The position numbers and the translations under genes are program-made. Positions 3,001 to 20,291 of a stretch of DNA of 21,984 nt are shown in pieces. Positions within the stretch are counted from its first letter, which is position 1. Each line of letters opens with the position of its first letter. The stretch is from a virus, in IMG/VR virus record IMGVR_UViG_3300010392_000636, positions 1-21,984 of that record; one strand, 5' to 3'. Below the pieces are notes generated by a model. It did no database searches and was not told the DNA's origin. It saw only the letters and a list, made by a program, of their open reading frames with translations.

Positions 3001-6000
3001 GTCAAGGGCTTTTATATCCACGGCGTCAGCTACAATAATATTACCATCTTTATCAGTCTTGCTTTTTGTTAGACCATCTACAACTTTTTGTGCGTTTTCT
3101 AAATATAAATCTAAATCACTCACTAATGCTGGATCAATTTTTAAAAATTGTTTTGCAGAAATCGAAACCTCTCCATCTAAACTTTCGCTTTTTAAAAGCT
3201 TTTTTATTTTTCTAGATAAGCTATCAGCATCACTAAACTTCTTAGCGTTATTCGCGTCTGTATTAACTTTATCGACATATTCTAAAACTTGACTCACTAG
3301 GCGGGGGTTGTTTAAATTCACACCCGACACCTTGTTAATTAAGGAGTTTGCTTTTTTTAAGGTTATTGATCCTAACTTTTCTAAAGATTTTATGGCATCA
3401 GACAGAGATTTTCTTCTTTTAGTCTGATCTAATTTTGAATCTTTTGCTGCTTTTACTTCAAGATTTATTTGATCTTTTAAAGCTTGACTCTCGTTAACAG
3501 TAACAATTTTAGGCTTTCCATCAGTTACGCTCTTTGTTGTTGGACCTTTCTTTTTGCCAAATATTCCAGGCTCTTGAGCTTCTTTTTCTAATTTAGACTT
3601 AACATTTTCTTCAACAATACTTAACGGCTCTCGATTAGGATCAACTTCTAATACGGTATTTACATTTGTTGGCGTTGCCTCTAGACCTGTTAAAGATTTA
3701 AATTTGTCTTTTAAATTTCTTAAGGTTTCAGTTGAAGCTGTTATACCCGTAAGCTCTTTTATGGCTTGATTATTAGGATTGTTTTTCATAAACTCAACAA
3801 CCTCCTCTAAAGTTACATTTTCTTGTCCAACAGCATCAACCCATCCGTCTTCTAAACTGACGCCGTCTTTACTGATCCAGGTACTTGTGAGACCAAATTC
3901 CCCAGGATCTACACCCGTTACTCGTCTCCAGCTTTCTGGAGTAAACTTAAGCCCGATGATGCCTGTTACTCCTGTATTAGATCCAAATAATTCTTGACTC
4001 TGCGCCTTACCTTCTTTTATTAATTTCTGCTCATTAACAATTGTCTCTGCAATCTCTTTAGCACTATCGCTTGACTCTGCAATCTCTTGGTTTATTTGAT
4101 CCGGAGAAACACCCTCATTTAATTGAGATCGCTGACCTTGATTAACATCAATAATAGACTCTAAATATATTTTTTCTGCAACTTTACGCGCCTTTTCTGA
4201 CACAGGCTTACCTGTTCTTGTGTTAATTACAGATTCAATTTTACCTTCTTCATTAAAATTTATCTGAGTACTAGTCTTTCTTCCTGTCAAAGATCTAACT
4301 ATAAAAGGTTCTTTAATAGATGGCTTAGTTATAAAGCCAGGGTCTTTTTTGTCCGATACAGCTTCTGTGGTAGTCTCTAAACCAATCGCTTTCTTCTGAC
4401 GTGAAGATAATGCGTCAATTTTTTTCTGAGACATTACTTCTGTAATAGGCTTTGATTTAGAAGTTATAACTTCTCCATAACTAGCTTCTATGTAATCTTT
4501 ATTAGACAGAGTATTTTCTTTTGATACTTCTGTTCCGCTTCTTTGACCATCAATAATCATGGTAAATTCTCTTGATCCGTCTAAATTTGTTTTAACCTCT
4601 ACAGTTGTATTAGTTCCGTCTGAACTTTCCATATCAACCTCAAAAACCTCAGCTTCTTTTGCTACTTGATTATCTCTAAGTCTTTCTTCTTCTAACGCAG
4701 GAGCTTCTTGAATAGTTCCTTCAAAACTTTGTTCCCCCTCAGGTGTAGTTGTTAATTCACCCTCTGGATTAGTAATTTGTTTTGATTGCTTGCTATCTCT
4801 TTCTTGAACTGCTTTTATTTCCTCATCTACGTTAGCAATCTGTTCATCTATAGTTTCTTTTAAAGGCCCTTCTAGTCCTTCCTTTTGCTTTACAAGGTTT
4901 AGTCTTTGCTGAAGTAAGTCCGAAGCCTCTAACATATTGTCAGAATTTATAATCGTACCGTTTGTTCTATTTATTGCAGTTTGCATTGCATAAATTTCAT
5001 CGTAAGCCTCCTTGCCTTGTTCAGGAGTTAACAACTCTTTATTTACTAAATCTTCAATAGACTGGTCTAGATCACTCACTTCACTAGCCACAAATCTTAT
5101 AGCGTCACTCCTTTGGTTTGATGTAAGCAATTGAGAGCCTCCTAAGCCAGTTGTTGCGCCTATGGTTAAAGCAATAGTCTCTATAATTTCACTCTTTTTA
5201 ACACTACTACTTCTAACATCAAGACCAGTGGCTGCATTTACAATTGCATTAATACCTTTTTCTGAAAAATAAACAGGCAGTTCTTCAACAACAACTTCTT
5301 TAAGGTTTTCTGCGGCAAGGGTTTTTATTTTACCGTATAATTTCTTCTTGCTGAAGTCTTTACCTTTGTTCTTTACTATATCTATTATTTGAGATTTAAT
5401 AGTTTTTAAACCACCACCTATTAGGTTAATATTTGACCCTGCTAATCCTGAAAAAAGACCATCTAAAGAGGCAATAGCATTTCCCGCCATAACAGCCTTG
5501 CCTAAGGCCTCATCTTCAGTTAGTCCTGCCTTAACAAGGTCAGCTCTCATATCTTCTACTGATTGAGCCACTGTGCTAGCGTAAGAAGCCGATCCCATTC
5601 CTATCGCCCCTTTGACTTTACTAGAAAGTTTAACGCCCTTTAAACCACTACTAAATATTTTTCCGCTATATATTAAAGCAAAAAGATTTGCAACCGTTTG
5701 TACTCCAGATTGAACAAAAGCTCCACCGTCATAAAAAGTTTCAGAATTATTTATGCTCTTTGCCCGATCTTTTATTTGCTTAATCTTTTCCTCTGACAAT
5801 ATTCCAAAAACACTTACATGAGTAGTATCATCTATCACATCTCCCTCATCGGTGACAATAAACTCCTTTCCGTTTACAGTAACCTTTTTTCCACTAATAA
5901 ACCCAGATCTTCGAACAGAACCAATATCTTTTTCAGCTGCTTCGCTAGAGTCTAAAAACGCTTCAGTAATTCCGGCTAATACTCCTTTTTTATCAGCCCC

Positions 6001-9464: not shown

Positions 9465-9875
9465 TTATATTGATTTTATCATTTCCTGTGTGTAGTTATC
9501 TCCGGATACGTATCCCATTTTTTCGTAAGTTTTAATCAATCCATTATGTTTTAATAAAGCATAAATAAATTTACTCCCAGAAGACTCACAAGTTTTAGTT
9601 AAACTTTCTATTAAAATATCCAAAGCTCCCTGGCGTTTTTCTTTTTCTTTGTATTCCTTATTAGAAATAATCCAGTCTACCCAAGCTACTTTTGAATTTG
9701 TCATATATATAAAACCTGCGCAAACAGGTGTTTCTCCGTCTAAAACTATTAGTCCTCCTTCTCCATTTTCAGGTAAGAAATCTTTTAATGGAGCTTCCCA
9801 CTCCCAATCTCTCCACCATTTGACTAAATAATCGTCATAATCAGAAGCTTTTAACTTTCTTATATTAAATTCCAT
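9465..9875 (-). CDS. GNAT-family acetyltransferase-like protein (T7 gp13 position)
   Basis: A 136-aa protein, about the length of a minimal GNAT domain. GNAT-like features are an N-terminal strand and helix (FNIRKLKASDYDDYL), a central strand pair ending in AGFIYMTNSKVAWVDWIISN (residues 53-72), a Lys/Arg-rich loop before a helix (about 76-92) where the acetyl-CoA pyrophosphate would bind, and a C-terminal N-GLIKTYEKMGY motif (111-122). The loop lacks the classical Q/R-x-x-G-x-G/A, so catalytic activity is uncertain. Similar proteins are common among marine phage structural genes. T7 gp13, an assembly protein at the same place in its gene order, belongs as I recall to the same fold superfamily, so a structural rather than enzymatic role is possible. 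A TATCTTTG box lies 22 bases upstream. Confidence 0.85.
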   Translation of the reverse strand: MEFNIRKLKASDYDDYLVKWWRDWEWEAPLKDFLPENGEGGLIVLDGETPVCAGFIYMTNSKVAWVDWIISNKEYKEKEKRQGALDILIESLTKTCESSGSKFIYALLKHNGLIKTYEKMGYVSGDNYTQEMIKSI

Positions 9876-9912: not shown

Positions 9913-11304
9913 TTAAGGATAACTTTTCATAACCTGAGACTCTACGGCAAATAATTCGGTAGCTGTAGTGTCTGTATTTTCGATAGTAAACAAACAATAA
10001 TGTCCTAATATTCCGTGAGACTCTGCTAATGTGTTTTTGTAAGCTAATATAAAAGCATTCTCGGTGGTTGGAGCTGTCGATCCTTCTATAGTGGCATCAA
10101 CTGTAATTCTACCTGGAACTATTCCTGCTATTTGACCAGCTAAAGCGGGAGTATTGGTATTGTCATTGTTGTAATACAAGTAATCTCCAACGCTAATTAT
10201 AGAATCTATAGCTACTGTTAAGTTAAAAAACCTCTGAGTATCCGGCCCACTAAAACTAGTTATCCTTCCTATTCCGTTTACAGATCTTAAATTAAAAGTA
10301 TCTAATATTGCAGGAACTTGAGTTGTGTTTTTTACAGAAGCAAACCAAGCCCCCTCCTTCTTTTCAAACCAATTTGAGCTAATGAAGCTATTGTTCTGAA
10401 TGTTAGTGGATAATGCTGCACTCCAAGAGCTATTTGATTGTAAGGTTAATGTTTTAAATAGTTTATTAGTTAATGGCTCTTTATTAATAACGCTAGTCAT
10501 TCTAGAGTTATATTGAGCTCCGTAATAATTATTATGCACCTCATTTGTGTTATGTCTATATAAATTACCTCCAGAAAAACTGTAGAAATAATTATTCATT
10601 CCGATCATATAGTCAGGACTAAAAGAAAAAAACGAAGGCCACCCTTTAACCCCTTCGCTATAAGACAAAGTATATTGCTGACCTAAAGGCACTATCGGAG
10701 CTGGCACAGGATTCGTAGGAACAGGAGTCGGAGCTGGTGTCGCTGTAGGAAGTGGAGTTACGGTTGCGGTAGGTATGGGTGTTGCTGTTGGTAAAGGCGT
10801 CGGACTTGGTGTCGGCGTTGGCGGTATTGTTGGCGATCCACCTGGAGTAATTGGATTAGTTCCTGACAGTACGCCAGAAACGGCAATAGTACCTGACCCT
10901 GTGACGTTAGAGCCACCACTTGATAGTAATGGGAACAAATAAATAGTGTAATTTCCAGCCGGCAAACTGTTATAACTTCCTAACGCTCCGGTAATTATCC
11001 CTGTAGTGCTTACTGGTGTGTTCCCTGAAGACGCGGTAGCGTCTGACGTACTTCTATAAAAATTAATAACCTCTTCCCCTGCTGCATTTATAACAACCCC
11101 TCTTGCAGTCACATCTCCACTTCCATTATCCCATCGTGCGGATATAAAAGGAGTGTCTCCGTAAGTAGGAGATGCAGCTAAAGGTAGTGAAAGAAAAAAC
11201 TCCTTAACAGCTACCACGCTATAAGTAACATTTCCTCTGCCTATATATTCAAATCCAGTGTTGGGATTAAATGAAGTTGTAGTAAGTTCGGTATAAAAAT
11301 TCAT
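9913..11304 (-). CDS. Tail protein with Pro/Thr linker and conserved C-terminal virion domain
   Basis: A 463-aa protein in three parts. Residues 1-148 are a beta-rich head with a segment (PAGNYTIYLFPLL) typical of Ig-like or adhesion folds. Residues about 151-205 are a linker of almost only Pro, Thr, Ala, Val and Ser. Residues 206-463 begin with YTLSYSEGVKGWPSFFSF, followed by MNNYFYSFSGG, LYRHN and NYYGAQYNS, then a region ending in KLFKTLTLQSNSSW. That pattern recurs, from memory, in large tail proteins of flavobacterial, marine and crAss-like phages. No signal peptide or membrane segment is seen. It lies 70 bases after the HtrL-type glycosyltransferase. A distal tail or receptor-binding part is likely. 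The Pro/Thr linker makes it a candidate substrate of the neighbouring transferases, which is inferred. Confidence 0.88.
   Translation of the reverse strand: MNFYTELTTTSFNPNTGFEYIGRGNVTYSVVAVKEFFLSLPLAASPTYGDTPFISARWDNGSGDVTARGVVINAAGEEVINFYRSTSDATASSGNTPVSTTGIITGALGSYNSLPAGNYTIYLFPLLSSGGSNVTGSGTIAVSGVLSGTNPITPGGSPTIPPTPTPSPTPLPTATPIPTATVTPLPTATPAPTPVPTNPVPAPIVPLGQQYTLSYSEGVKGWPSFFSFSPDYMIGMNNYFYSFSGGNLYRHNTNEVHNNYYGAQYNSRMTSVINKEPLTNKLFKTLTLQSNSSWSAALSTNIQNNSFISSNWFEKKEGAWFASVKNTTQVPAILDTFNLRSVNGIGRITSFSGPDTQRFFNLTVAIDSIISVGDYLYYNNDNTNTPALAGQIAGIVPGRITVDATIEGSTAPTTENAFILAYKNTLAESHGILGHYCLFTIENTDTTATELFAVESQVMKSYP
10690..10854 (-). repeat. Pro/Thr low-complexity linker (degenerate ACNCCN repeat) in the 463-aa gene
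   Basis: Encodes residues 151-205, with units such as PTPTPSPTPLPTATPIP. The DNA is a degenerate run of CCN-ACN codons, richer in G/C than its surroundings. It shares short words (TTCCTACAGC, CGACTCCTGT) with the linker at 14463-14552. Confidence 0.85.
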
Positions 11305-11322
11305 AGGTAAATATTCTAGCTA

Positions 11323-11330
11323 CAAAATTA
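11323..11330 (-). promoter_or_regulatory. Candidate Bacteroidota -7 box (TAATTTTG) before the 463-aa gene
   Basis: The minus strand reads TAATTTTG, matching TAnnTTTG, 18 bases before the start of the 463-aa tail gene. It lies in the 70-base gap at 11305-11374, the longest in the window. No TTTG is seen at the expected -33 distance. The rest of the gap is AT-rich with no convincing hairpin. Confidence 0.4.
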
Positions 11331-11374
11331 CGATTTTATTATTAATGTATTCAGATTCTTGTAAAGTCAAAGCT

Positions 11375-12130
11375 TTATGATAAAATATCAAAATACTCTC
11401 TCCAATCAGATTTTATAAGCTCTATTTTATCTTTATTATCATTCCACATAAGATCAAATATCTTCTCATCAGACCCAATATATCCTTTCATAATACAAGC
11501 CTCTACCTTATAAGCAAAAGCATCACACATCCATTTAAGGTCTTTCTTAGGTATAGAGAAACAACCTCCCTGTATATTCCTAAATTGACTAAGAGAATGG
11601 TCTTCGTCGTTTTTATAAATATGCACTGGTGTGTTATGACTAAAAAACATAGGTTTATCACTGAGCTTGGCTGGGTTTGGCCACTTTACATTGTATTCAC
11701 TAGCGTCTTTATCTCTAAAACAACCCGCATCTACCCACACATAATGAGTCCCATCAGTTATAGTTGAGGCGTCTAACATCCACCTTAACTTGTTAAACAT
11801 GAGTATATTGTACCATACTTCGCACATCTCAGGAACTTGAGGAAATACCACTTTGTTTTTAAATTCAACTGAATTCATCAATATATTTAATTCGTAAAAA
11901 TGTTTTAAAGTAGAATACAATACAGGTTTGCGTAGTTCAATTATATCTATATTACTAGGCCTTAAAGCTTCAATCTCATCTTTTAATTTTTCAGTATAAC
12001 AAACAATTTTATTCTTAACCTGAAGAAGATTGTTCATCCAATACAAATAAGTATCTATGGATAGATTATATTCTTTCCATTTATCCCTTTCAATATCATA
12101 CAACGCGGTAACTATAATAGGCTTGTTCAT
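11375..12130 (-). CDS. HtrL/YibB (WlaTC)-type glycosyltransferase
   Basis: A 251-aa cytoplasmic-type protein with no membrane segment. Its N-terminus, IIVTALYDIERDKW (residues 5-18), and YVWVDAG (130-136) fit the HtrL/YibB family, whose members include Campylobacter WlaTC, linked to lipooligosaccharide. The Asp of VDAG is probably the metal/nucleotide-sugar site, as in DxD transferases. A second conserved patch, NIQGGCFSIPKKDL, lies in the C-terminal third, and the end (GYIGSDEKIFDLMW) resembles acceptor-side sequence of GT-A enzymes. The sugar and acceptor cannot be read from the sequence. It starts 2 bases after the GT60 stop, so the two are coupled and probably work together, perhaps adding sugars in sequence. 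Possible targets are phage tail proteins, which I prefer from context, or host surface sugars. Confidence 0.8.
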   Translation of the reverse strand: MNKPIIVTALYDIERDKWKEYNLSIDTYLYWMNNLLQVKNKIVCYTEKLKDEIEALRPSNIDIIELRKPVLYSTLKHFYELNILMNSVEFKNKVVFPQVPEMCEVWYNILMFNKLRWMLDASTITDGTHYVWVDAGCFRDKDASEYNVKWPNPAKLSDKPMFFSHNTPVHIYKNDEDHSLSQFRNIQGGCFSIPKKDLKWMCDAFAYKVEACIMKGYIGSDEKIFDLMWNDNKDKIELIKSDWREYFDILS

Positions 12131-12132
12131 AA

Positions 12133-13362
12133 TTATATTTCAAACACCCTTTTGTTTATCCACCCTTTAGACGTGCTGTAAGGCCATAACACCCACTGAT
12201 GGGGGTCAGGTCCATTATACTCTCTTCGTACAGTAGAACTCTCCTGTGTGCCTACAAACAGATTGTTTATCTCTACCTTGCTTAAATCCTCTCGATTTAA
12301 AGGCTCTCCGTTTTTATCTTCAAAAATTAAAGCAGCAAACTCATAATCATCTTCTGGAAAAAAATCTTTACGTAAAGTTAACTGATGTTTTGATTTTAAA
12401 AAATAAGGCTCATTTAATCCCTTAGAAGGAAGTGTGTTTTTTGAACAGCTGTTAGTTATAGCCCTGTCCTTAAAGCGTATGCCACTGTATTTTTCATAAT
12501 CCATAATAGTTCTATGACTACCAATATCATAACCTTTAAATGCGTTTTTATTACAAGGAGAGCAAACCTCACCGTCAACCCCTAAAAGTCGCCTAGTTCT
12601 AGAATGAGCAATTTCATTTTTTGAATGCCAATCCTTGTCATCATCCCACTGCTTCACTCTACCCACCCTAGTATACTCGTGCCAATTAATTAATTTATGA
12701 GGGTGAAACAAATCATACCCCCAAGTGTAAGCCCTTACCGCTATTGTTATCTCTTCTCCGTGGAAATAAAACATAGGATCGTGCTGAACTTCTTTACAGA
12801 AATCTCCAACAGTAAAAGCAAAATGAGCAGAATAGAACCTAGCCGGAATAGGGGATGTAACAGTTTCGTCTAAATAATATGGTAGAAAAAATACAACTCC
12901 TTCTGGAGTAAATCTATCAAACTTCATTCCACAAGGCTTATCACCTCTTTCAACTGGATCTTTTTCTGGAAAATAAGAAGGCATATACCCCGTAAGCAGA
13001 GGTTTATTATAACCTTCATCTTGAAGAGACTTCAGCATATCTATGCATATAGTGTCCCAGCCTTTTACAAATCTGTGATGAGAGTCTATTTGAAGTGTGT
13101 ATTTTTCTCCGTTATAATGTTGTTGTATTTGATTTCTAGCCCAGCAAGCGCCCAAAGAATCGCCGTAAGGAATATCTATAATTATAAACCTATCATCATT
13201 AGCATATTTTAGAAGCGTGTCCCATTCATCTTCATTACTATGTTGATGTGCAATACATATTTTTAGACCACTTGAATTGTCTGCGTTCTCCAGCATATTA
13301 TCAATCGTGGGAATAAGTTCCGGATCTCGATAACTAGCAATCTGTATAAAGATTGTTTCCAT
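12133..13362 (-). CDS. GT60-type (GlcNAc-transferase family) glycosyltransferase
   Basis: A 409-aa protein. Residues 1-235 match the GlcNAc family (CAZy GT60), whose eukaryotic members add GlcNAc to hydroxyproline of Skp1. Visible signatures are IFIQIASYRDPELIPTI (4-20), a conserved S-x-GACWAR-x-Q (69-79), LQIDSHHRF (90-98) with DSH as the DxD-like metal site, GWD (101-103), and HGEE (201-204) near WGYD. The C-terminal 130 residues form a separate domain of unknown role, beginning near YSGIRFKDR and ending in a Trp-rich segment. A paired CSPC lies at 267-270. No signal peptide or membrane helix is present, so it would act in the infected cell's cytoplasm. Its position between two Pro/Thr-linker tail genes suggests virion protein glycosylation. 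That acceptor is inferred; host or phage glycans are alternatives. Confidence 0.88.
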   Translation of the reverse strand: METIFIQIASYRDPELIPTIDNMLENADNSSGLKICIAHQHSNEDEWDTLLKYANDDRFIIIDIPYGDSLGACWARNQIQQHYNGEKYTLQIDSHHRFVKGWDTICIDMLKSLQDEGYNKPLLTGYMPSYFPEKDPVERGDKPCGMKFDRFTPEGVVFFLPYYLDETVTSPIPARFYSAHFAFTVGDFCKEVQHDPMFYFHGEEITIAVRAYTWGYDLFHPHKLINWHEYTRVGRVKQWDDDKDWHSKNEIAHSRTRRLLGVDGEVCSPCNKNAFKGYDIGSHRTIMDYEKYSGIRFKDRAITNSCSKNTLPSKGLNEPYFLKSKHQLTLRKDFFPEDDYEFAALIFEDKNGEPLNREDLSKVEINNLFVGTQESSTVRREYNGPDPHQWVLWPYSTSKGWINKRVFEI

Positions 13363-13384
13363 TATATTAAATTTAATTATAAAA

Positions 13385-13392
13385 CAAAATTA
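13385..13392 (-). promoter_or_regulatory. Candidate Bacteroidota -7 box (TAATTTTG) before the GT60 gene
   Basis: The minus strand reads TAATTTTG, 22 bases before the GT60 start, in the 53-base gap at 13363-13415. A 12-base AT palindrome (ATTAAATTTAAT, 13366-13377) lies between box and start; in such AT-rich DNA it may be chance. No clear -33 TTTG is present. Confidence 0.4.
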
Positions 13393-13415
13393 CTAATTAT
13401 ATTGTAAATTAAAAA

Positions 13416-14726
13416 TTATAAAACCTGAATACTTATCTGACACGTGTCTAATACTACCCCGGCATTATTACCCTCTTTTAACTGCATCTGTACAAGACCT
13501 GTTGCATTTGGATTACCGTCAAAATAAATATTAACCGGCCCTCCGCCTGGACCGCCTGTATTTGAATCTACAGTAAAAGAAAGATAAGCGTTGCCTCCAC
13601 TAGCGAAGTTAATGTAATAGTTTGTATTACAGTTTACGGTAGCAAATAAAGTTGTCGCAGAACCTCTAGCCACGCCTAAAACATTAGGGAAAAATGTACA
13701 GTTAGGAGTTACCGGAGGCTCAGTTGCTGTAGCATTAGCGCTACATGGTATTAAAGCGCCATTATTATTAATAGGAGTGTCGATACCACTTCTGTCAACA
13801 GACGTCGCTGTAATTCTAATGTTAGCACTATACGCTTGAGGTTGAGATCCAGACTGATAAGTAGAAGGAGTAATAGCCCCTTCAATATTCCCATTAACAA
13901 TACTTGCGCTAACCGACTGACCAACAGTCCCGTCTTCTACGGTAAATGTTGCATCACTACAAACAAAAGCAACAGGATCTGGAGGTAAAGCAGGGCATCC
14001 CGTTAAGCATATACCATTTTCTTGAACACAAGCCACGCCCGACAACTCTGTCCAAGTAGCTCCCACAGAACTAACACTCGCCTCAACAGTGTAAAACACC
14101 CCTGTAGCTGAAGATTGTTGCACCCTAGTGTCTATACCAAACTCAACTTCTGTAGTAAAGAAAAATTCAGTCTCATTAGTTAAACAAGCCCTAAGTTGAT
14201 AAGTAAATGTAGTCGAAATAGCTGGACATCCAAATAAACCTGTTAAAGCCTCTAGGCTAGACGGAAGTATCAAGCTCTGATTAACTGAAGGCAAGGCTGG
14301 AAATGTATTGTTATACGTATAAAACTTAGACGGAGTAGCACTACTATCAACATACCTTTGAGTATTACCAGGTTCGTCCGCAGGCAAAGAAGCAATATAT
14401 CCGGAATCTGGAGTTACTCCTGCACTATCAACACAACCAACTAACGTGTAGTAAACAACAGATGGCCCTGGTGTCGGAGTTGGGACAGGAGTCGATGTAG
14501 GCGTCGGTGGAATAGGTGTGGCTGTAGGAACTGCCGTTGGTGTAGGCGTTGCCGCGCAGTTAGGGCATAAAACAGCTGTAAGTAATCTACATCCTAGCAA
14601 TTGACGAGATATAATTCCATCAGAATAATACCCATCTCCTGCACAAATAGTTAAATTTGCATCTGTAAAAATTGAAGTAGCACTTGCAAAAGTAGCCGTG
14701 TCAAAATAATAAGTTCCTTGTGCCAT
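13416..14726 (-). CDS. Cys-rich modular tail protein with Pro/Thr linker
   Basis: A 436-aa protein. Residues 1-57 form a short module (TFASATSIFTDANLT, DGYYSDGIISRQLLGC) ending in CPNC; I recall such modules at the ends of marine Bacteroidota phage tail proteins. Residues 59-88 are a Pro/Thr linker. Two related modules follow, about 91-168 and 174-245, each with a Y-x-L-x-x-C start, an SSAT-x-x-FYT core and a GCPA end. Residues 255-436 are beta-rich, Gly/Ser/Asn-rich sequence with spaced Cys. Cys is unusually frequent for a phage protein, suggesting disulfides or metal sites. No signal peptide or enzyme motif is seen. It follows the tube protein by 10 bases and precedes the glycosyltransferases. 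A tail fibre or tip protein is likely; the exact role is unknown. Confidence 0.87.
   Translation of the reverse strand: MAQGTYYFDTATFASATSIFTDANLTICAGDGYYSDGIISRQLLGCRLLTAVLCPNCAATPTPTAVPTATPIPPTPTSTPVPTPTPGPSVVYYTLVGCVDSAGVTPDSGYIASLPADEPGNTQRYVDSSATPSKFYTYNNTFPALPSVNQSLILPSSLEALTGLFGCPAISTTFTYQLRACLTNETEFFFTTEVEFGIDTRVQQSSATGVFYTVEASVSSVGATWTELSGVACVQENGICLTGCPALPPDPVAFVCSDATFTVEDGTVGQSVSASIVNGNIEGAITPSTYQSGSQPQAYSANIRITATSVDRSGIDTPINNNGALIPCSANATATEPPVTPNCTFFPNVLGVARGSATTLFATVNCNTNYYINFASGGNAYLSFTVDSNTGGPGGGPVNIYFDGNPNATGLVQMQLKEGNNAGVVLDTCQISIQVL
13992..14456 (-). repeat. Duplicated ~75-residue module in the 436-aa tail protein
   Basis: Residues 91-168 (14223-14456) and 174-245 (13992-14207) share a YTL/YQL-x-x-C opening, a T-Q/R-x-V-x-x-SSAT-x-x-FYT core and a GCPA ending. 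Identity is low outside these points, so the duplication is old or the modules were acquired separately. Confidence 0.5.
14463..14552 (-). repeat. Pro/Thr low-complexity linker in the 436-aa gene
   Basis: Encodes residues 59-88, with units such as PTPTAVPTATPIPPTP. It has the same style as the longer linker at 10690-10854 and shares VPTATPIP/LPTATPIP and short DNA words with it. It separates the N-terminal module from the two Cys modules. Confidence 0.8.
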
Positions 14727-14736
14727 TTATATTAAT

Positions 14737-17700
14737 TTAAGTTGGACAGTTTAATGTTGTACTCCATGAGTTATTACTTAACGGTGAATACACTTCCACT
14801 GTAGCAAATGTTGTTGCTGTAGATTTAGTAAATGTTCCCGTTCCAATACCAACTCCAGAAATAGTCTCGGGAGGTAATCCTCTTCCTGAAAGAGCATTGT
14901 TTAACGCTCCTTGTTGAGTAGCATCCCCTCTATATCCAGTGTTTATAACTTCAACCCCGTCAAATTTAACTATTACTTTAGAAGGAACTTCTGTAATATT
15001 AAAATCTAACAGTACTCCTCCAAGTGTAGCTCCTAAAGTAATATTTGATGTTTGAGGAAAGACAGCACCTCCGCTATAACTATTCGCTACGCCACAAGCT
15101 ATTGTAGGTCCTATAGGCGTCGCTGGGCAGCAAGCATCTATGTAGTTACTATCTTTATTTAATATACCGCTAGTTGAGCTTCTATAATCCCAAATTAAAT
15201 ATAATTTATTTTGAGTTGTAGTTCCAACAGGCATAGTAAAATTAGCAAAATTTTGACCTCCATTTGTTACAATTGGAGTGGCTTCAGAAGATGCGGTTAT
15301 TAACGACAATATATCTGATGAAGTATTATTATATACAATATCTGTTCTTAAATACCTAAACTTATTAGATGTGGTATTAAACACAAAATCATCAGTAGTT
15401 AATTTATTGCTTATTATATTCACTAAAGCTCCTTCACTAGGAACTACTCCTGCTCCAATAGGACCTGATACGGTACTATATTGAGATACAATAGGAATTA
15501 AATCGCTCGCCGCAAAATCAACTTGATTGGAATGTAATGGTGAAGAAAATACACCATCTGTCCAATTATATTGATTATGAATAGTTTGAGTTGCTTCATT
15601 ATTGCTAGTAACACTAATATTATATATTGTTATTATATCCTGAATAGGGCATTCAGTTGTTATTTGTATAGTGTCCGCAACTAAAGAAGTTGTAGAAACC
15701 GCCAAGGTAATTTCTGAAACATCTACTATATTTTTAGGTATAGTAATAGTCCCGCTTACAAATACTAATCCGCTAGTATATTCAACTCCATTGTAGTAAG
15801 CCTTAATAATATAACCATCCGAACCACTGCTTGTAGATTGAGAAACAATATCAAGACCAGATTCAGTCTGAACATCTTCTAATCCGGGAGATACGGGGGT
15901 GTTTATTTCGCTAACAACATCTTCTAGCGCAGCGTTAGGTATAACATAATCAATAACTACTGATCCTATATCTTGACCTACATTCACACAGTATATAGTC
16001 TCTTCTTCTGGATTTACTAAAACATTTTCTGTTACACCACAAGCCAAACAATTACTCATACCTGGGATTGTTTGAGAATTAGTAGCTAAAACATACTCGT
16101 TCATGTAAGGGTCAAAAGCTCCAAGCTTCTGATTAGTAATGGTATTTATAAAGAAATCTCTAAACCAGCCACGCATCCCAAATTCAGAAATAACCTGTAA
16201 TTGTTCTTGCCCAACATCGTTTCCTGTTAATTGTATTACAGCACCTCTTTTTGAATCCGTAAAATATTTATTCGCTCCATAAGAAACAAAACTTTCAGGA
16301 TTAGAGCTTATACCAAACTCTTCAATTCTAGGAACTTGCGATCCTAAAACTTCAGGAACAGACGTCAAGACTCCACCTCCAGAGGCATCTGTAAGTAAAT
16401 TTACACCTGTCATCACGTAAGATATTTTATCCTCTTGAAGCGTTAGTATGTCTTTTTTCCTAGAGTATAATTTATTTATAGGACCAAAAGAATCCTCTAA
16501 ACTTTTAAAATTTAGAAGACCTAAATTAAATTCATTAAGCTTATTTACGTTGCTTTCATCATTAAATATACCGCTATAAGTTAGGTCCGCAAACCTGTGA
16601 GCCTCCTTGTATATTTCTGCAGATGTAGTGCTTACTCTATTTCCAAAATTTAATGGCTTCCCCGTTAAAGAGTCTCTGACTTTATAACTTTCAATTCCAT
16701 TTCCAAATGATATACAATTGTAAAATCCAGTGTCAATAATAGCATCTTGAGGAGTTGTAGTTCCTGCGTTATTAAAATTAATAAGCTGATTAGAAACATT
16801 TCCCGTGTGCTGACCTAAATCGTCAATAGCAAAAGACAAGTCGTTTTCATACCAAACATCAGGTAAAGCTTCAACTGGCTCTGTCTCAAAAGCAATAGTA
16901 GAACCGTCGGTTCTATCTACTATTATCTGAACATCAACAGAAGCCTTGCTTCGACCAAGATTGCCAACACAACCCACTCCTCCAGCAACAATTAAAAACA
17001 ATTGATTAGTCGTGGTGTTTCTAAAAAACTGATAACTAATGTTATTTATATTTGCATTAGGAAAATCAGTCCCATTAGGATTTCTAGCCGCAGTAATAAG
17101 TGTATTATAGTAAGTACTAATGAAGGGACTCCCAGTTTCATCTCCATCATAAGTACCCTGTCCATTATCTATTAGTAAATTAATACTTTCACCTTCCCAA
17201 TAATCTTTAAAGTTATTATAATCAGCCCTAGCTCGAACGTCTAAATTTAATTTATAAGTTCTTCTTCCGCAGCTATTACTTCTACCCCACCTATTAAATA
17301 AAAAATTAAATCTACCGTTTGATCCATTATTTACAGTGTAGTCAATATAATCATAAGGAGCTCCTGAAGTGTTCACTACATTTACTGGGTATGCCACGGC
17401 AGGTCTTCCGTTTACTCTATTTTGTATATTTCCTGGATCAACCAAAACCCCTCCCGCATCATCAGCAGAAGCTATCGAAAAGTTGGTAGTATTTATCTTC
17501 ATGTAAGCTCCAGCAGGAACGTTAATTGTTCCTGCAGGATCACTTCCAGCAGCAGGATTTAAGGGATCTTCTATATTTATAAAGTTAATTCCTTTTGCTT
17601 CTTTCTCTAATACTGTTGCGTATGTGCAACTCCTTAAGTATTCGTTGCTATCTCTTTTTACTATTAACCTATCTCCAGTCTGGACCTTAGCCGCATTCTC

Positions 17701-19230
17701 TCCCTCTAATAAGAAAAAAGTAGCGTTACTATCTGGATCTTTATAGTATGTGCTAACATAAATAGTATTATAAGTTGTTTTGTCAGGCTTAATGACAAAT
17801 TTATATCTTTTTGCCCATGAAGGCGCTATTTGAGGTGGAGAAACTGACGTAGAATTAGGTCCAGATCCACCTGGAATAGTAACCTGTATAGTGTTTACTG
17901 CAGCTGAATATTCGCAAGCAACATGAACAGTGTTGTTTAAAGAAACTTGAGTAGTGGAAGATCTATTGAACTCATCCATGTAGACAATGCCTATTTCATA
18001 TCCTCGATTACTATGTAGACTATAATTATTAGATGACTTTACATAGCGAGCTTCAACTGAATTTATCTGATAATACTCATATAAAGTTTGAGTGGGAGTG
18101 TTTATATCATCCACAAACTTCATAGCCGGTATTTGAAAACTAATAACACTACTTCCAGGGCTGCTTATTATTTCAATAGCTTGATCTACAGCAGAAATTC
18201 CACTTGCAGTTTTAACAAACGTTGTCCCTGAGTTAGATAAGTTAGTTGGTATAATACAATTAAACTCATCTGTAACCGTAACTCCAATGCACGAATTTGC
18301 TACAGTTTTAATAGGAGGCCCAATTATCGCTATAAAATCAGCGCTTGTCGCTAAGTCATGAACGCTATTAAAGTTTTGAGACAAAACATAATCAATAGTG
18401 ATAACTTTTGCTGTAGTCGTTGTGTCTGGAAAGGGGGCTTGACCTGAAAAAGAATAATGAAAAAATTGAATTTCAAAATTTATACTTGAACCTTGAATTA
18501 ATTCTGAGTCAGATAAATCTACACTAACAATAGAGTCAGGTATTGTCTCTGAAGTTCCACCTATAGTATATACACCACTATTAGTGGTATCTGTAAGAGT
18601 TACTAAGCCTACATCTTTTGACTCTAAGTTAACGCTATAATTAAAATTAATAGGGTTATTAAACCTATCTAATAAATTGTATCCTTCTACGTAATTTCCA
18701 TACACAAGTCTGTTTCCTATTAAAGTTTGAGCTTGAGCTATTTTAGGAACATTATCATAAAGCCTTAATATTTCATATTCAGGAAGTATGGTAAATATTT
18801 TTTGATTATCAAAAATATAAACTTCTGTATTGTCGTTTCCAAGTCCTGCTGCCGCTTTGTCTATTTTTTCTATAACTTTAATAGTAGGATTATCCATCTC
18901 CTTAAATAAAAGTTCTATTCCCGTAACTAAAGCTCCTCCAGTGTTGTAAGATATTCGCACAGCATTTGAAGAGTTTATCATCCCCTCATTTAAAAAACTT
19001 TCATAACTAAAAGTAAAAAATTTAGATGTAAACGCAGGGTCACTAAATTGTGAAGTTGCAGAAAACTCTCCATTCTGATATTGATACCTGTAAGCAAAGC
19101 AAATAAACCGATCCTCTAAAAAGTTATTTTCAGTAGGCAAGGAAAATGCGCTAACAGTCGGTGCAGAGACGGGTGGCTTTTTTATTACTAAAAGGCTTTC
19201 TGCGCTAAAATCATCTATATATGCAGCCAT
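14737..19230 (-). CDS. Large tail tube/stabilisation-type protein, second part (1497 aa)
   Basis: The N-terminus (IDDFSAESLLVIKKPPVSAPT, then FICFAYRYQYQNGEFSATSQFSDPAF at 42-67) looks like the middle, not the start, of P22 gp10/T7 gp12-like tube proteins of crAss-like and flavobacterial phages, as I recall them. IAQAQTLIGNRLVYGNYVEG (164-183) follows. Residues about 885-1010 hold the most recognisable block: ADLTYSGIFNDESNVN, LQEDKISYVM, GISSNPESF, YFTDSKRGAVIQL and GMRGWFRDFF. Residues 1378-1497 form a separate beta module ending in a Cys (GVANSYSGG, VKFDGVEVINTGYRG, CPT). The protein is beta-rich throughout, with no export signal. The start ATG lies 2 bases after the 352-aa stop. Adding one base to the A run at 19235-19237 would join the two into one frame of about 1851 codons, so this may be the larger part of a broken or recoded gene. 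Confidence 0.85.
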   Translation of the reverse strand: MAAYIDDFSAESLLVIKKPPVSAPTVSAFSLPTENNFLEDRFICFAYRYQYQNGEFSATSQFSDPAFTSKFFTFSYESFLNEGMINSSNAVRISYNTGGALVTGIELLFKEMDNPTIKVIEKIDKAAAGLGNDNTEVYIFDNQKIFTILPEYEILRLYDNVPKIAQAQTLIGNRLVYGNYVEGYNLLDRFNNPINFNYSVNLESKDVGLVTLTDTTNSGVYTIGGTSETIPDSIVSVDLSDSELIQGSSINFEIQFFHYSFSGQAPFPDTTTTAKVITIDYVLSQNFNSVHDLATSADFIAIIGPPIKTVANSCIGVTVTDEFNCIIPTNLSNSGTTFVKTASGISAVDQAIEIISSPGSSVISFQIPAMKFVDDINTPTQTLYEYYQINSVEARYVKSSNNYSLHSNRGYEIGIVYMDEFNRSSTTQVSLNNTVHVACEYSAAVNTIQVTIPGGSGPNSTSVSPPQIAPSWAKRYKFVIKPDKTTYNTIYVSTYYKDPDSNATFFLLEGENAAKVQTGDRLIVKRDSNEYLRSCTYATVLEKEAKGINFINIEDPLNPAAGSDPAGTINVPAGAYMKINTTNFSIASADDAGGVLVDPGNIQNRVNGRPAVAYPVNVVNTSGAPYDYIDYTVNNGSNGRFNFLFNRWGRSNSCGRRTYKLNLDVRARADYNNFKDYWEGESINLLIDNGQGTYDGDETGSPFISTYYNTLITAARNPNGTDFPNANINNISYQFFRNTTTNQLFLIVAGGVGCVGNLGRSKASVDVQIIVDRTDGSTIAFETEPVEALPDVWYENDLSFAIDDLGQHTGNVSNQLINFNNAGTTTPQDAIIDTGFYNCISFGNGIESYKVRDSLTGKPLNFGNRVSTTSAEIYKEAHRFADLTYSGIFNDESNVNKLNEFNLGLLNFKSLEDSFGPINKLYSRKKDILTLQEDKISYVMTGVNLLTDASGGGVLTSVPEVLGSQVPRIEEFGISSNPESFVSYGANKYFTDSKRGAVIQLTGNDVGQEQLQVISEFGMRGWFRDFFINTITNQKLGAFDPYMNEYVLATNSQTIPGMSNCLACGVTENVLVNPEEETIYCVNVGQDIGSVVIDYVIPNAALEDVVSEINTPVSPGLEDVQTESGLDIVSQSTSSGSDGYIIKAYYNGVEYTSGLVFVSGTITIPKNIVDVSEITLAVSTTSLVADTIQITTECPIQDIITIYNISVTSNNEATQTIHNQYNWTDGVFSSPLHSNQVDFAASDLIPIVSQYSTVSGPIGAGVVPSEGALVNIISNKLTTDDFVFNTTSNKFRYLRTDIVYNNTSSDILSLITASSEATPIVTNGGQNFANFTMPVGTTTQNKLYLIWDYRSSTSGILNKDSNYIDACCPATPIGPTIACGVANSYSGGAVFPQTSNITLGATLGGVLLDFNITEVPSKVIVKFDGVEVINTGYRGDATQQGALNNALSGRGLPPETISGVGIGTGTFTKSTATTFATVEVYSPLSNNSWSTTLNCPT

Positions 19231-19232
19231 GT

Positions 19233-20291
19233 CTAAATATTAATTGTGTAAGTTACATTATTAACTAAAGTTATACTTGTAAAGTTAAGTAATCCTGTCG
19301 ATTCTGGCTGTATATTTATACCTGATCCATCATTAAATATTGATCCAGGCGCATAATTTACCGACCAAGTTCCACTTGACCCGTCATCTCCAGTTATAGT
19401 GCCCGACAAAGTTCCTGAGCCTGGATTACCAACTCCTGAAGAATTAATTATACCAAAACCCCCGGTACTATCTCCATATACAAATGAAGTTAAAGCAAAA
19501 TTAGAAGCGTTTCCGCTGCCTTGGAGGCCATATCCTTTGGTAACCGTAAGCACTGACCCTGAAATAGGAATTGTATAACAGTCTGTACCCGGCAAAGCAA
19601 TTTGAGTTGTAGTAGGCGCTACTCCCGCACCTATACCTCCAATAGGATTAGGGCAAGGAAGAAGAGTCCCTCTATGAAATCCATAAACGTCCACTAACAC
19701 AGCGTTAGTAAATCCAGCAGTAAATTTCCACGCTAAACTTGGAACTGAAGCAGGAGTACCGGTAACTGGATCACCATAATTATTATTTATATTTATAGAT
19801 CTAGGGGGATTTAAATTATCTGTAAAAAATAATAAATTTTCAATTAAATTTATACCTGTTATTAAGTTTTGAGGATTAAAATTTAAAGTAGTAAGTATTC
19901 CTCCTCCGTCATCAAGACTAATAACATGATAATTTAACTGAGTTGTTATCGTGTTAAAAGAAACTATCATATCACATTTTCCAGTATTTCCTAAAGGAAA
20001 TTCAGGATCATGAACAAACCAATATATAGTCTCATTCGCACCATCATCATAAGCTCCCAAGGTTCTTGCTGCGGAACTTAAAGGTGTCTCAACAAGTGTT
20101 ACCCTGTCTGTAAATATTAAAGACGTTAAAACGGTGTTTCCTTTAGTATTTTCCACAGAGCCATATTCAGAATCTTCCGTAGAACCTAAGCGAACATTTA
20201 ACGCGTCAATATATTCACCATCAATTATAAGCCTTTCATCAAGGCTTTTATTCATCCTTCCCTTAATGAAGTTTCTTTGAATTTTTGCCAT
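19233..20291 (-). CDS. Tail tube/stabilisation-type protein, first part (352 aa)
   Basis: The N-terminus is typical of the stabilisation/tube family: FIKGRMNKSLDERLIIDGEY (8-27), DALNVRLGSTEDSEYGSVENTKGN, then a beta-propeller-like pattern with GAYDDGANETIYWFVHD (79-95), a Phe/Asn strand near 110-125 and FFTDNLNPPRSININ (155-169). The second half (about 175-352) is Gly/Ser/Thr/Asn-rich beta sequence without recognisable motifs and ends in NVTYTINI before a TAG at 19233-19235. In related proteins, as I recall, the NPPRSIN region leads within one chain into IDDFS-like sequence, which here opens the next gene. The protein is therefore either a real separate subunit, or the N-terminal part of a gene split by one base. 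It starts 1 base after the 306-aa stop (TAAAATG). Confidence 0.82.
   Translation of the reverse strand: MAKIQRNFIKGRMNKSLDERLIIDGEYIDALNVRLGSTEDSEYGSVENTKGNTVLTSLIFTDRVTLVETPLSSAARTLGAYDDGANETIYWFVHDPEFPLGNTGKCDMIVSFNTITTQLNYHVISLDDGGGILTTLNFNPQNLITGINLIENLLFFTDNLNPPRSININNNYGDPVTGTPASVPSLAWKFTAGFTNAVLVDVYGFHRGTLLPCPNPIGGIGAGVAPTTTQIALPGTDCYTIPISGSVLTVTKGYGLQGSGNASNFALTSFVYGDSTGGFGIINSSGVGNPGSGTLSGTITGDDGSSGTWSVNYAPGSIFNDGSGINIQPESTGLLNFTSITLVNNVTYTINI

Follow-up and report, generated by a model that had tools for sequence, protein, structure and literature searches.

A candidate protein O-glycosylation cassette in the muzzle operon of a crAss-like phage

The window analysed here is a 22-kb stretch of viral DNA (21,984 nucleotides; positions 1 to 21,984 of IMG/VR record IMGVR_UViG_3300010392_000636) and its genes mark it as part of a crAss-like (Crassvirales) phage genome. 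Two putative glycosyltransferases, P0003 and P0002, are encoded in it between two proteins that bear stalks rich in proline and threonine, P0004 and P0001. We propose that this pair is a phage-encoded protein O-glycosylation cassette that lies in the operon of the muzzle, or tail tip, and acts on the Pro/Thr stalks of its two neighbours, and we consider this proposal probable. Computed support comes from protein family, fold, sequence motif, gene order and the co-occurrence of stalks and enzymes; the activity, the sugar donor, the acceptor residue, the use of the stalks as substrate and the biological role are what we infer.

How would such a cassette operate? During infection, P0003 would transfer an N-acetylhexosamine (HexNAc), most likely N-acetylglucosamine (GlcNAc) from host uridine diphosphate (UDP)-GlcNAc, in the cytoplasm to threonines, and perhaps to some serines, in the stalks of P0001 and P0004. 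The HtrL-type enzyme P0002 would next lengthen this glycan by at least one sugar. Once decorated and stiffened, the stalks would link variable outer domains to the muzzle-anchoring part of P0001 (a muzzle C-terminal domain) and, in P0004, to its conserved head, producing mucin-like bristles on the tail tip. Such bristles may provide stalk rigidity, protection from proteases, or shielding or adhesion. A protective or shielding role is speculation, and the domain order is just as compatible with stalk stiffening and display of the variable outer domains.

The transferase pair lies in the muzzle operon

All genes of the locus are on the minus strand, in the 5' to 3' order P0004, P0003, P0002 and P0001. 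P0004 (13416..14726; 436 residues) directly follows the muzzle gene and is a tail-tip protein that consists of a conserved 58-residue N-terminal domain, a Pro/Thr stalk (14457..14558, residues 57-90; 12 Pro and 10 Thr in 34) and a variable C-terminal domain. P0003 (12133..13362; 409 residues), the proposed initiator, and P0002 (11375..12130; 251 residues), the proposed extender or capper, are separated by 2 bases. P0001 (9913..11304; 463 residues) comprises an N-terminal domain, a Pro/Thr stalk (10684..10860, residues 149-207; 22 Pro and 15 Thr in 59) and, as its presumed anchor, the crAss_MUZ_C domain (10330..10536, residues 257-325; PF25729, 8.4e-16). Both stalks, the candidate glycan acceptors, have the Thr/Pro-rich composition expected of a mucin-like domain, and they are encoded by mixed Pro and Thr codons and are thus not a DNA microsatellite or repeat artefact.

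The flanking genes are, by homology, members of the muzzle operon. Upstream lie the main muzzle protein P0005 (14737..19230; phrog_14478, 5e-177) and, as a separate open reading frame (ORF), a muzzle N-terminal piece (19233..20291; PF25731, 2.4e-9, residues 5-172), both also on the minus strand. The wider order on that strand runs from tail genes through the N-terminal piece, P0005, P0004, P0003, P0002 and P0001 to an acetyltransferase-like gene and then to virion and cargo-like genes, and the order of the muzzle genes is kept in relatives. The phiCrAss001 muzzle, a hexameric complex of ~1 MDa, sits at the tail tip and probably touches the cell and gates ejection (PMC10172136). An earlier note on this DNA had given the gene order, coordinates, 2-base gap and Pro/Thr linkers correctly, and its description of the flanking genes as tail proteins can now be sharpened to the muzzle operon through PF25729 in P0001 and the muzzle proteins upstream.

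P0003 and P0002 resemble initiating and extending transferases

P0003 matches PF11397, "Glycosyltransferase (GlcNAc)", with 229 bits against a cut-off of 21 (E 1.4e-67), which places it in the GT60 family of glycosyltransferases (GTs). Its AlphaFold (AF2) model, built with 41 homologues, has a predicted local distance difference test score (pLDDT) of 93.8, and every one of its 29 best PDB matches is a polypeptide N-acetylgalactosaminyltransferase (pp-GalNAc-T), with Z of 19.7-22.9 (top, GalNAc-T2 at 22.9), whereas other GT-A classes reach at most 17.3. The fold is therefore predicted to be of the polypeptide O-transferase type, whose top-matching class acts on peptide Ser/Thr, but a fold alone is no proof of function. 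In the alignment of the 41 homologues, D93-S94-H95 (13078..13086, minus strand) is invariant, and E203, E204 and H228 are conserved alongside it. This DxH motif, which pp-GalNAc-Ts use, likely binds metal and UDP in P0003.

The partner, P0002, belongs to the HtrL_YibB family (PF09612; 56.9 bits, cut-off 24.1, E 3.3e-15), to which Pfam assigns no function; its glycosyltransferase fold comes from model matches. The AF2 model (pLDDT 88.4) has a GT-A fold, and the nearest structures (Z 11.6-14.3) are LARGE1 (14.3), a PBCV-1 GT (12.7) and GT6 enzymes (about 12), the PBCV-1 enzyme being described as involved in glycosylation of that virus's major capsid protein. PDB sequence searches with P0003, P0002 and their alignments yielded nothing usable, so the matches for both come from fold comparison. 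The nearness of the P0002 model to sugar-extending enzymes fits the role of extender or capper that had been suggested for it, but is no proof of extension.

Stalks accompany modification cassettes among muzzle relatives

We compared 80 muzzle relatives, a set later enlarged, using the P0005 muzzle as the anchor for aligning loci. Genes were called mechanically, the counts cover the 71 non-redundant loci in which the interval is complete, and a Pro-rich tract was taken as at least 7 Pro in 20 residues. The relatives share the order muzzle, P4N protein (the homologue of the P0004 N-terminal domain, directly after the muzzle in nearly all relatives that hold it), a variable slot, MUZ_C protein and acetyltransferase. 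A Pro-rich stalk is present at 38 of the 41 loci with a modification cassette in the slot and at 0 of the 30 without. The maximum number of Pro per 20 residues is 6-14 in the former and 3-6 in the latter. Within cassette loci, tracts occur in 69/123 slot genes against 8/383 other genes.

The slot holds GT60 alone, GT60 with HtrL (the window), GT60 with GT32, a prolyl 4-hydroxylase (P4H) homologue with a 276-residue gene, P4H with a radical SAM gene and GT60, P4H with GT32, or a 2-oxoglutarate (2OG)-oxygenase/P4H with an O-fucosyltransferase (O-FucT), with or without a carbamoyltransferase. Along the muzzle tree these contents switch 12 times or more, yet the stalks are retained, and the comparison supports the view that stalk-modification cassettes form a family of interchangeable sets to which that of the window belongs. 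At L365 (15897-17063 and 16966-18510), as at L460 and L446, a PF10250 GDP-fucose protein O-fucosyltransferase and a carbamoyltransferase occupy the slot, and the tracts are of Ala/Val/Pro.

Could the enzymes instead act on the host or on the phage genome, through serotype or receptor conversion of lipopolysaccharide or capsule or through DNA hypermodification, with the slot serving as a "moron" cargo site? DNA and O-antigen are frequent targets of phage glycosyltransferases (PMC12619734), PHROGs classes this GT as "moron", and two cultured carriers of the cassette, XacN1 and RAS14, have thymidylate synthase-family genes. However, a host or genome target leaves unexplained both the gain of stalks with the cassette and the polypeptide-transferase fold of P0003; the slot also accepts O-fucosyltransferase and P4H, both protein-modifying families, as well as carbamoyltransferase; and a thymidylate synthase or hydroxymethylase, looked for as a sign of DNA glucosylation, is present in 0 of 27 crass-like records. 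We regard such a target as very unlikely.

GT60 and Pro/Thr proteins are associated in other phages

The association extends beyond crassviruses. The 79 GT60 loci in IMG/VR form 28 clusters at 80% identity, and a Pro/Thr gene lies within 10 kb of GT60 in 21 of these clusters, compared with ~9% of control loci. The gene directly upstream of GT60 contains a Pro/Thr tract in 10/25 clusters, against 12/1156 control viral genes encoding 100 or more residues (Fisher, 1e-12). In the reverse search, GT60 was found in 8/50 records picked by a TPTPTPTP DNA pattern and in 0/50 picked by GTGTGTGT (p 0.006), although the GTGTGTGT (GTGT) control records differ in lineage from the TPTPTPTP records. HtrL is likewise a neighbour of GT60 (21/28 clusters vs 0/120 control loci), and the unrelated phage L063 has GT60, HtrL and a Pro/Thr protein in the same order as the window. 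A sequence search for HtrL relatives gave the window's twin contig alone, and a local profile search was used instead. Cassette neighbours at L019 also include GT2, GT10 and GT7 enzymes.

The cultured jumbo phages XacN1 (L004:11992-18949) and RAS14 (L005:12001-18350) each carry GT60, a carbamoyltransferase and two HtrL genes, mostly annotated as hypothetical. The giant ORF325 of XacN1, a neighbour of a baseplate gene, contains two PTPTPTP tracts (at about residues 3079-3113 and 3140-3162), and a giant ORF of RAS14 has one in the part read. Because these isolates carry the cassette, the proposal is testable now. Peptide-pattern searches of 84,980 species genomes found GT60 only in a Saprospiraceae metagenome-assembled contig and in Niabella aurantiaca, both without Pro/Thr neighbours and therefore giving no bacterial precedent. 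Among open-licence papers, none was found that links GT60 or HtrL with phage tails.

The earlier note had proposed that the two enzymes decorate the linkers, had asked whether GT60 presence correlates with Pro/Thr-linker genes, and had named as a refuting case related phages that keep the GT pair without linker-bearing proteins. Both tests were made, and the core of the idea withstood them: stalks and cassettes co-occur almost perfectly in the relatives, GT60 adjoins Pro/Thr proteins across unrelated phages, and the predicted O-transferase fold and the regular company of HtrL genes add to this support.

Several observations weigh against it. At three loci of the L391 clade GT60 is kept without a stalk, and other loci of this clade have very short, Thr-poor stalks. 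Among muzzle loci, HtrL is found in the slot only in the window's phage. Of the records picked by TPTPTPTP, 42/50 are without GT60, though the records are fragments. In the T4-like (L063-type) clade, Pro/Thr proteins are present at 29/31 loci without a nearby GT60, and 9/22 such records hold GT60 elsewhere. This clade rules out the claim that a Pro/Thr tract requires GT60; GT60 is a better predictor of stalks than stalks are of GT60. Finally, independent cassette gains and losses are too few (3 on a 50-row tree and 2 on a 70-row tree) for significance to be reachable in a phylogenetic sign test, and Fisher significance of the cassette–stalk association overstates independence.

These few independent events, and the ubiquity of Pro/Thr tail proteins in the L063-type clade, whether or not GT60 is nearby, would also be expected if stalks and glycosyltransferases were each simply common in the tail-tip operons of some clades and hitch-hiked without any enzyme–substrate relation. 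Such a coincidence of lineage is improbable in our judgement, given that the association recurs across the 28 diverse GT60 clusters and in the reverse search, that stalks are kept through the turnovers of enzyme sets, and that L327, a sister of L335 inside the window's clade, is without GT60 or any cassette and retains only a 13-residue stalk remnant.

Threonine is the likelier acceptor in the window's phage

Which residue would carry the sugar? The earlier note took GT60 as a hydroxyproline enzyme, with Thr as an alternative. The former is too narrow, since CAZy GT60 includes TcOGNT1 of Trypanosoma cruzi, an enzyme that forms GlcNAc-alpha-Thr in mucins (PMC9472816, PMC3769586, PMC8724618); a hydroxylase is therefore not required. 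The hydroxylase search that the note called for found no prolyl hydroxylase family match in the window and no PF13640 in 18 records of the window's GT60 clade, these being fragments of which the longest is 58.6 kb. Sister phages do carry a P4H homologue in the same slot (PF13640 up to 6.8e-19), whose PDB matches 5iax, 2jig and 7zsc are bacterial, algal and human prolyl 4-hydroxylases; it adjoins GT-like genes and is sometimes accompanied by GT60 (L359, L362, L369, L470).

Stalks of GT60-only cassettes average 39% Thr among non-Pro residues, and those of the window have 43%. The tracts of P4H cassettes are long, with Thr as low as 13-15% of non-Pro residues at four O-FucT loci. Tract length and P4H presence vary together in the expected direction, but with 1-3 independent contrasts only. 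In the alternative that these data bear on, a phage or host P4H hydroxylates stalk prolines and GT60 glycosylates the hydroxyproline, as on Skp1 and plant extensins. The sister-phage P4H and the long tracts of its cassettes, poor in Thr at the four O-FucT loci, favour this route, which we nevertheless consider unlikely for the window, where the clade is without PF13640 and GT60-only stalks are Thr-rich on average. Because no P4H is found in the window's clade, the stalks are Thr-rich and GT60 enzymes also use Thr, direct glycosylation of Thr appears likelier here; hydroxyproline would be a likely acceptor in the sister phages.

In L343 (16243-17415), L366 (10172-11314) and 7 further muzzle records, the P4H homologues directly adjoin tail-tip proteins with PVPVPVP/PTPSPSP tracts and have, by eye, a second, C-terminal half that is 2OG-oxygenase-like. 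A radical SAM/SPASM gene lies between P4H and a short GT60-like gene at L359 (10001-10909; also L362, L369 and L470), possibly for a further modification of the stalk peptide. The 276-residue gene of P4H cassettes is identified by no Pfam match, and we do not claim it as a hydroxyproline transferase, which would be guesswork.

Comparison with known systems

The proposed cassette shares its Pfam family with the protist mucin-type GT60 polypeptide alpha-GlcNAc-transferase (T. cruzi TcOGNT1) and its fold (Z up to 22.9) with the animal GT27 pp-GalNAc-Ts, and those mucin-type systems likewise combine Thr/Pro-rich acceptor segments with further GTs for extension. Their enzymes, however, work in the Golgi, whereas the phage enzyme is necessarily cytoplasmic and its acceptors would be predicted tail-tip stalks. 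The Skp1 Gnt1 pathway also has a cytoplasmic GT60 that adds GlcNAc first and other GTs that extend it, but it needs a prolyl hydroxylase; none was found in the window's clade, while sister phages pair P4H with GT60-like enzymes.

Phage virion glycosylation as such is already known. Mycobacteriophages carry glycans on capsid and tail proteins (Freeman et al. 2023, as cited in PMC12619734), in that account on the C-termini of capsid and tail-tube subunits, whereas the system proposed here involves GT60/HtrL and the Pro/Thr stalks of a podovirus tail tip. The muzzle of phiCrAss001 (gp44) and its C-terminal domain, at the tail tip, are homologous to those of the window, but in the window a protein of its own carries the C-terminal domain after a stalk, and the GT cassette intervenes. 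Glycosylation is not described in the phiCrAss001 paper, and "glycosyl" is absent from its text (PMC10172136).

In a wider reading, to which we give about even chances, eukaryote-like protein O-glycosylation cassettes that can replace one another are present in crassviruses and in other aquatic phages. They would be of a GT60 mucin type, a P4H and GT extensin type, and an O-fucosyltransferase and carbamoyltransferase type, and would build glycosylated tail-tip stalks resembling mucins and hydroxyproline-rich glycoproteins. If so, phages produce mucin-like glycoproteins, and sister phages hydroxyproline-rich ones, through cassettes that resemble protist and plant pathways, and place them on the machine that first touches the host. 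It would account for a class of orphan phage glycosyltransferases, bear on the origin of GT60/GT27 mucin-type initiation, and offer small cytoplasmic enzymes with which mucin-like proteins could be produced in bacteria.

Neighbouring genes

The muzzle of the window is split into two ORFs (19233-20291 and 14737-19230), and in relatives such as L391 it is one protein of 1912 residues. The 352-residue piece ends in a domain (GTITGDDGSSGTWSVNY) that resembles, by eye, a separate slot ORF of L373. At the P0004 position of MW202828, the gene labelled "putative glycosidase" (L003:13143-13694) encodes a P4N-domain tail-tip protein, and the label looks doubtful. The small acetyltransferase-like gene of the window (9465-9875; phrog_17252) is kept after the MUZ_C gene whether or not a cassette is present, and its counterpart in MW202828 is labelled N-terminal acetyltransferase.

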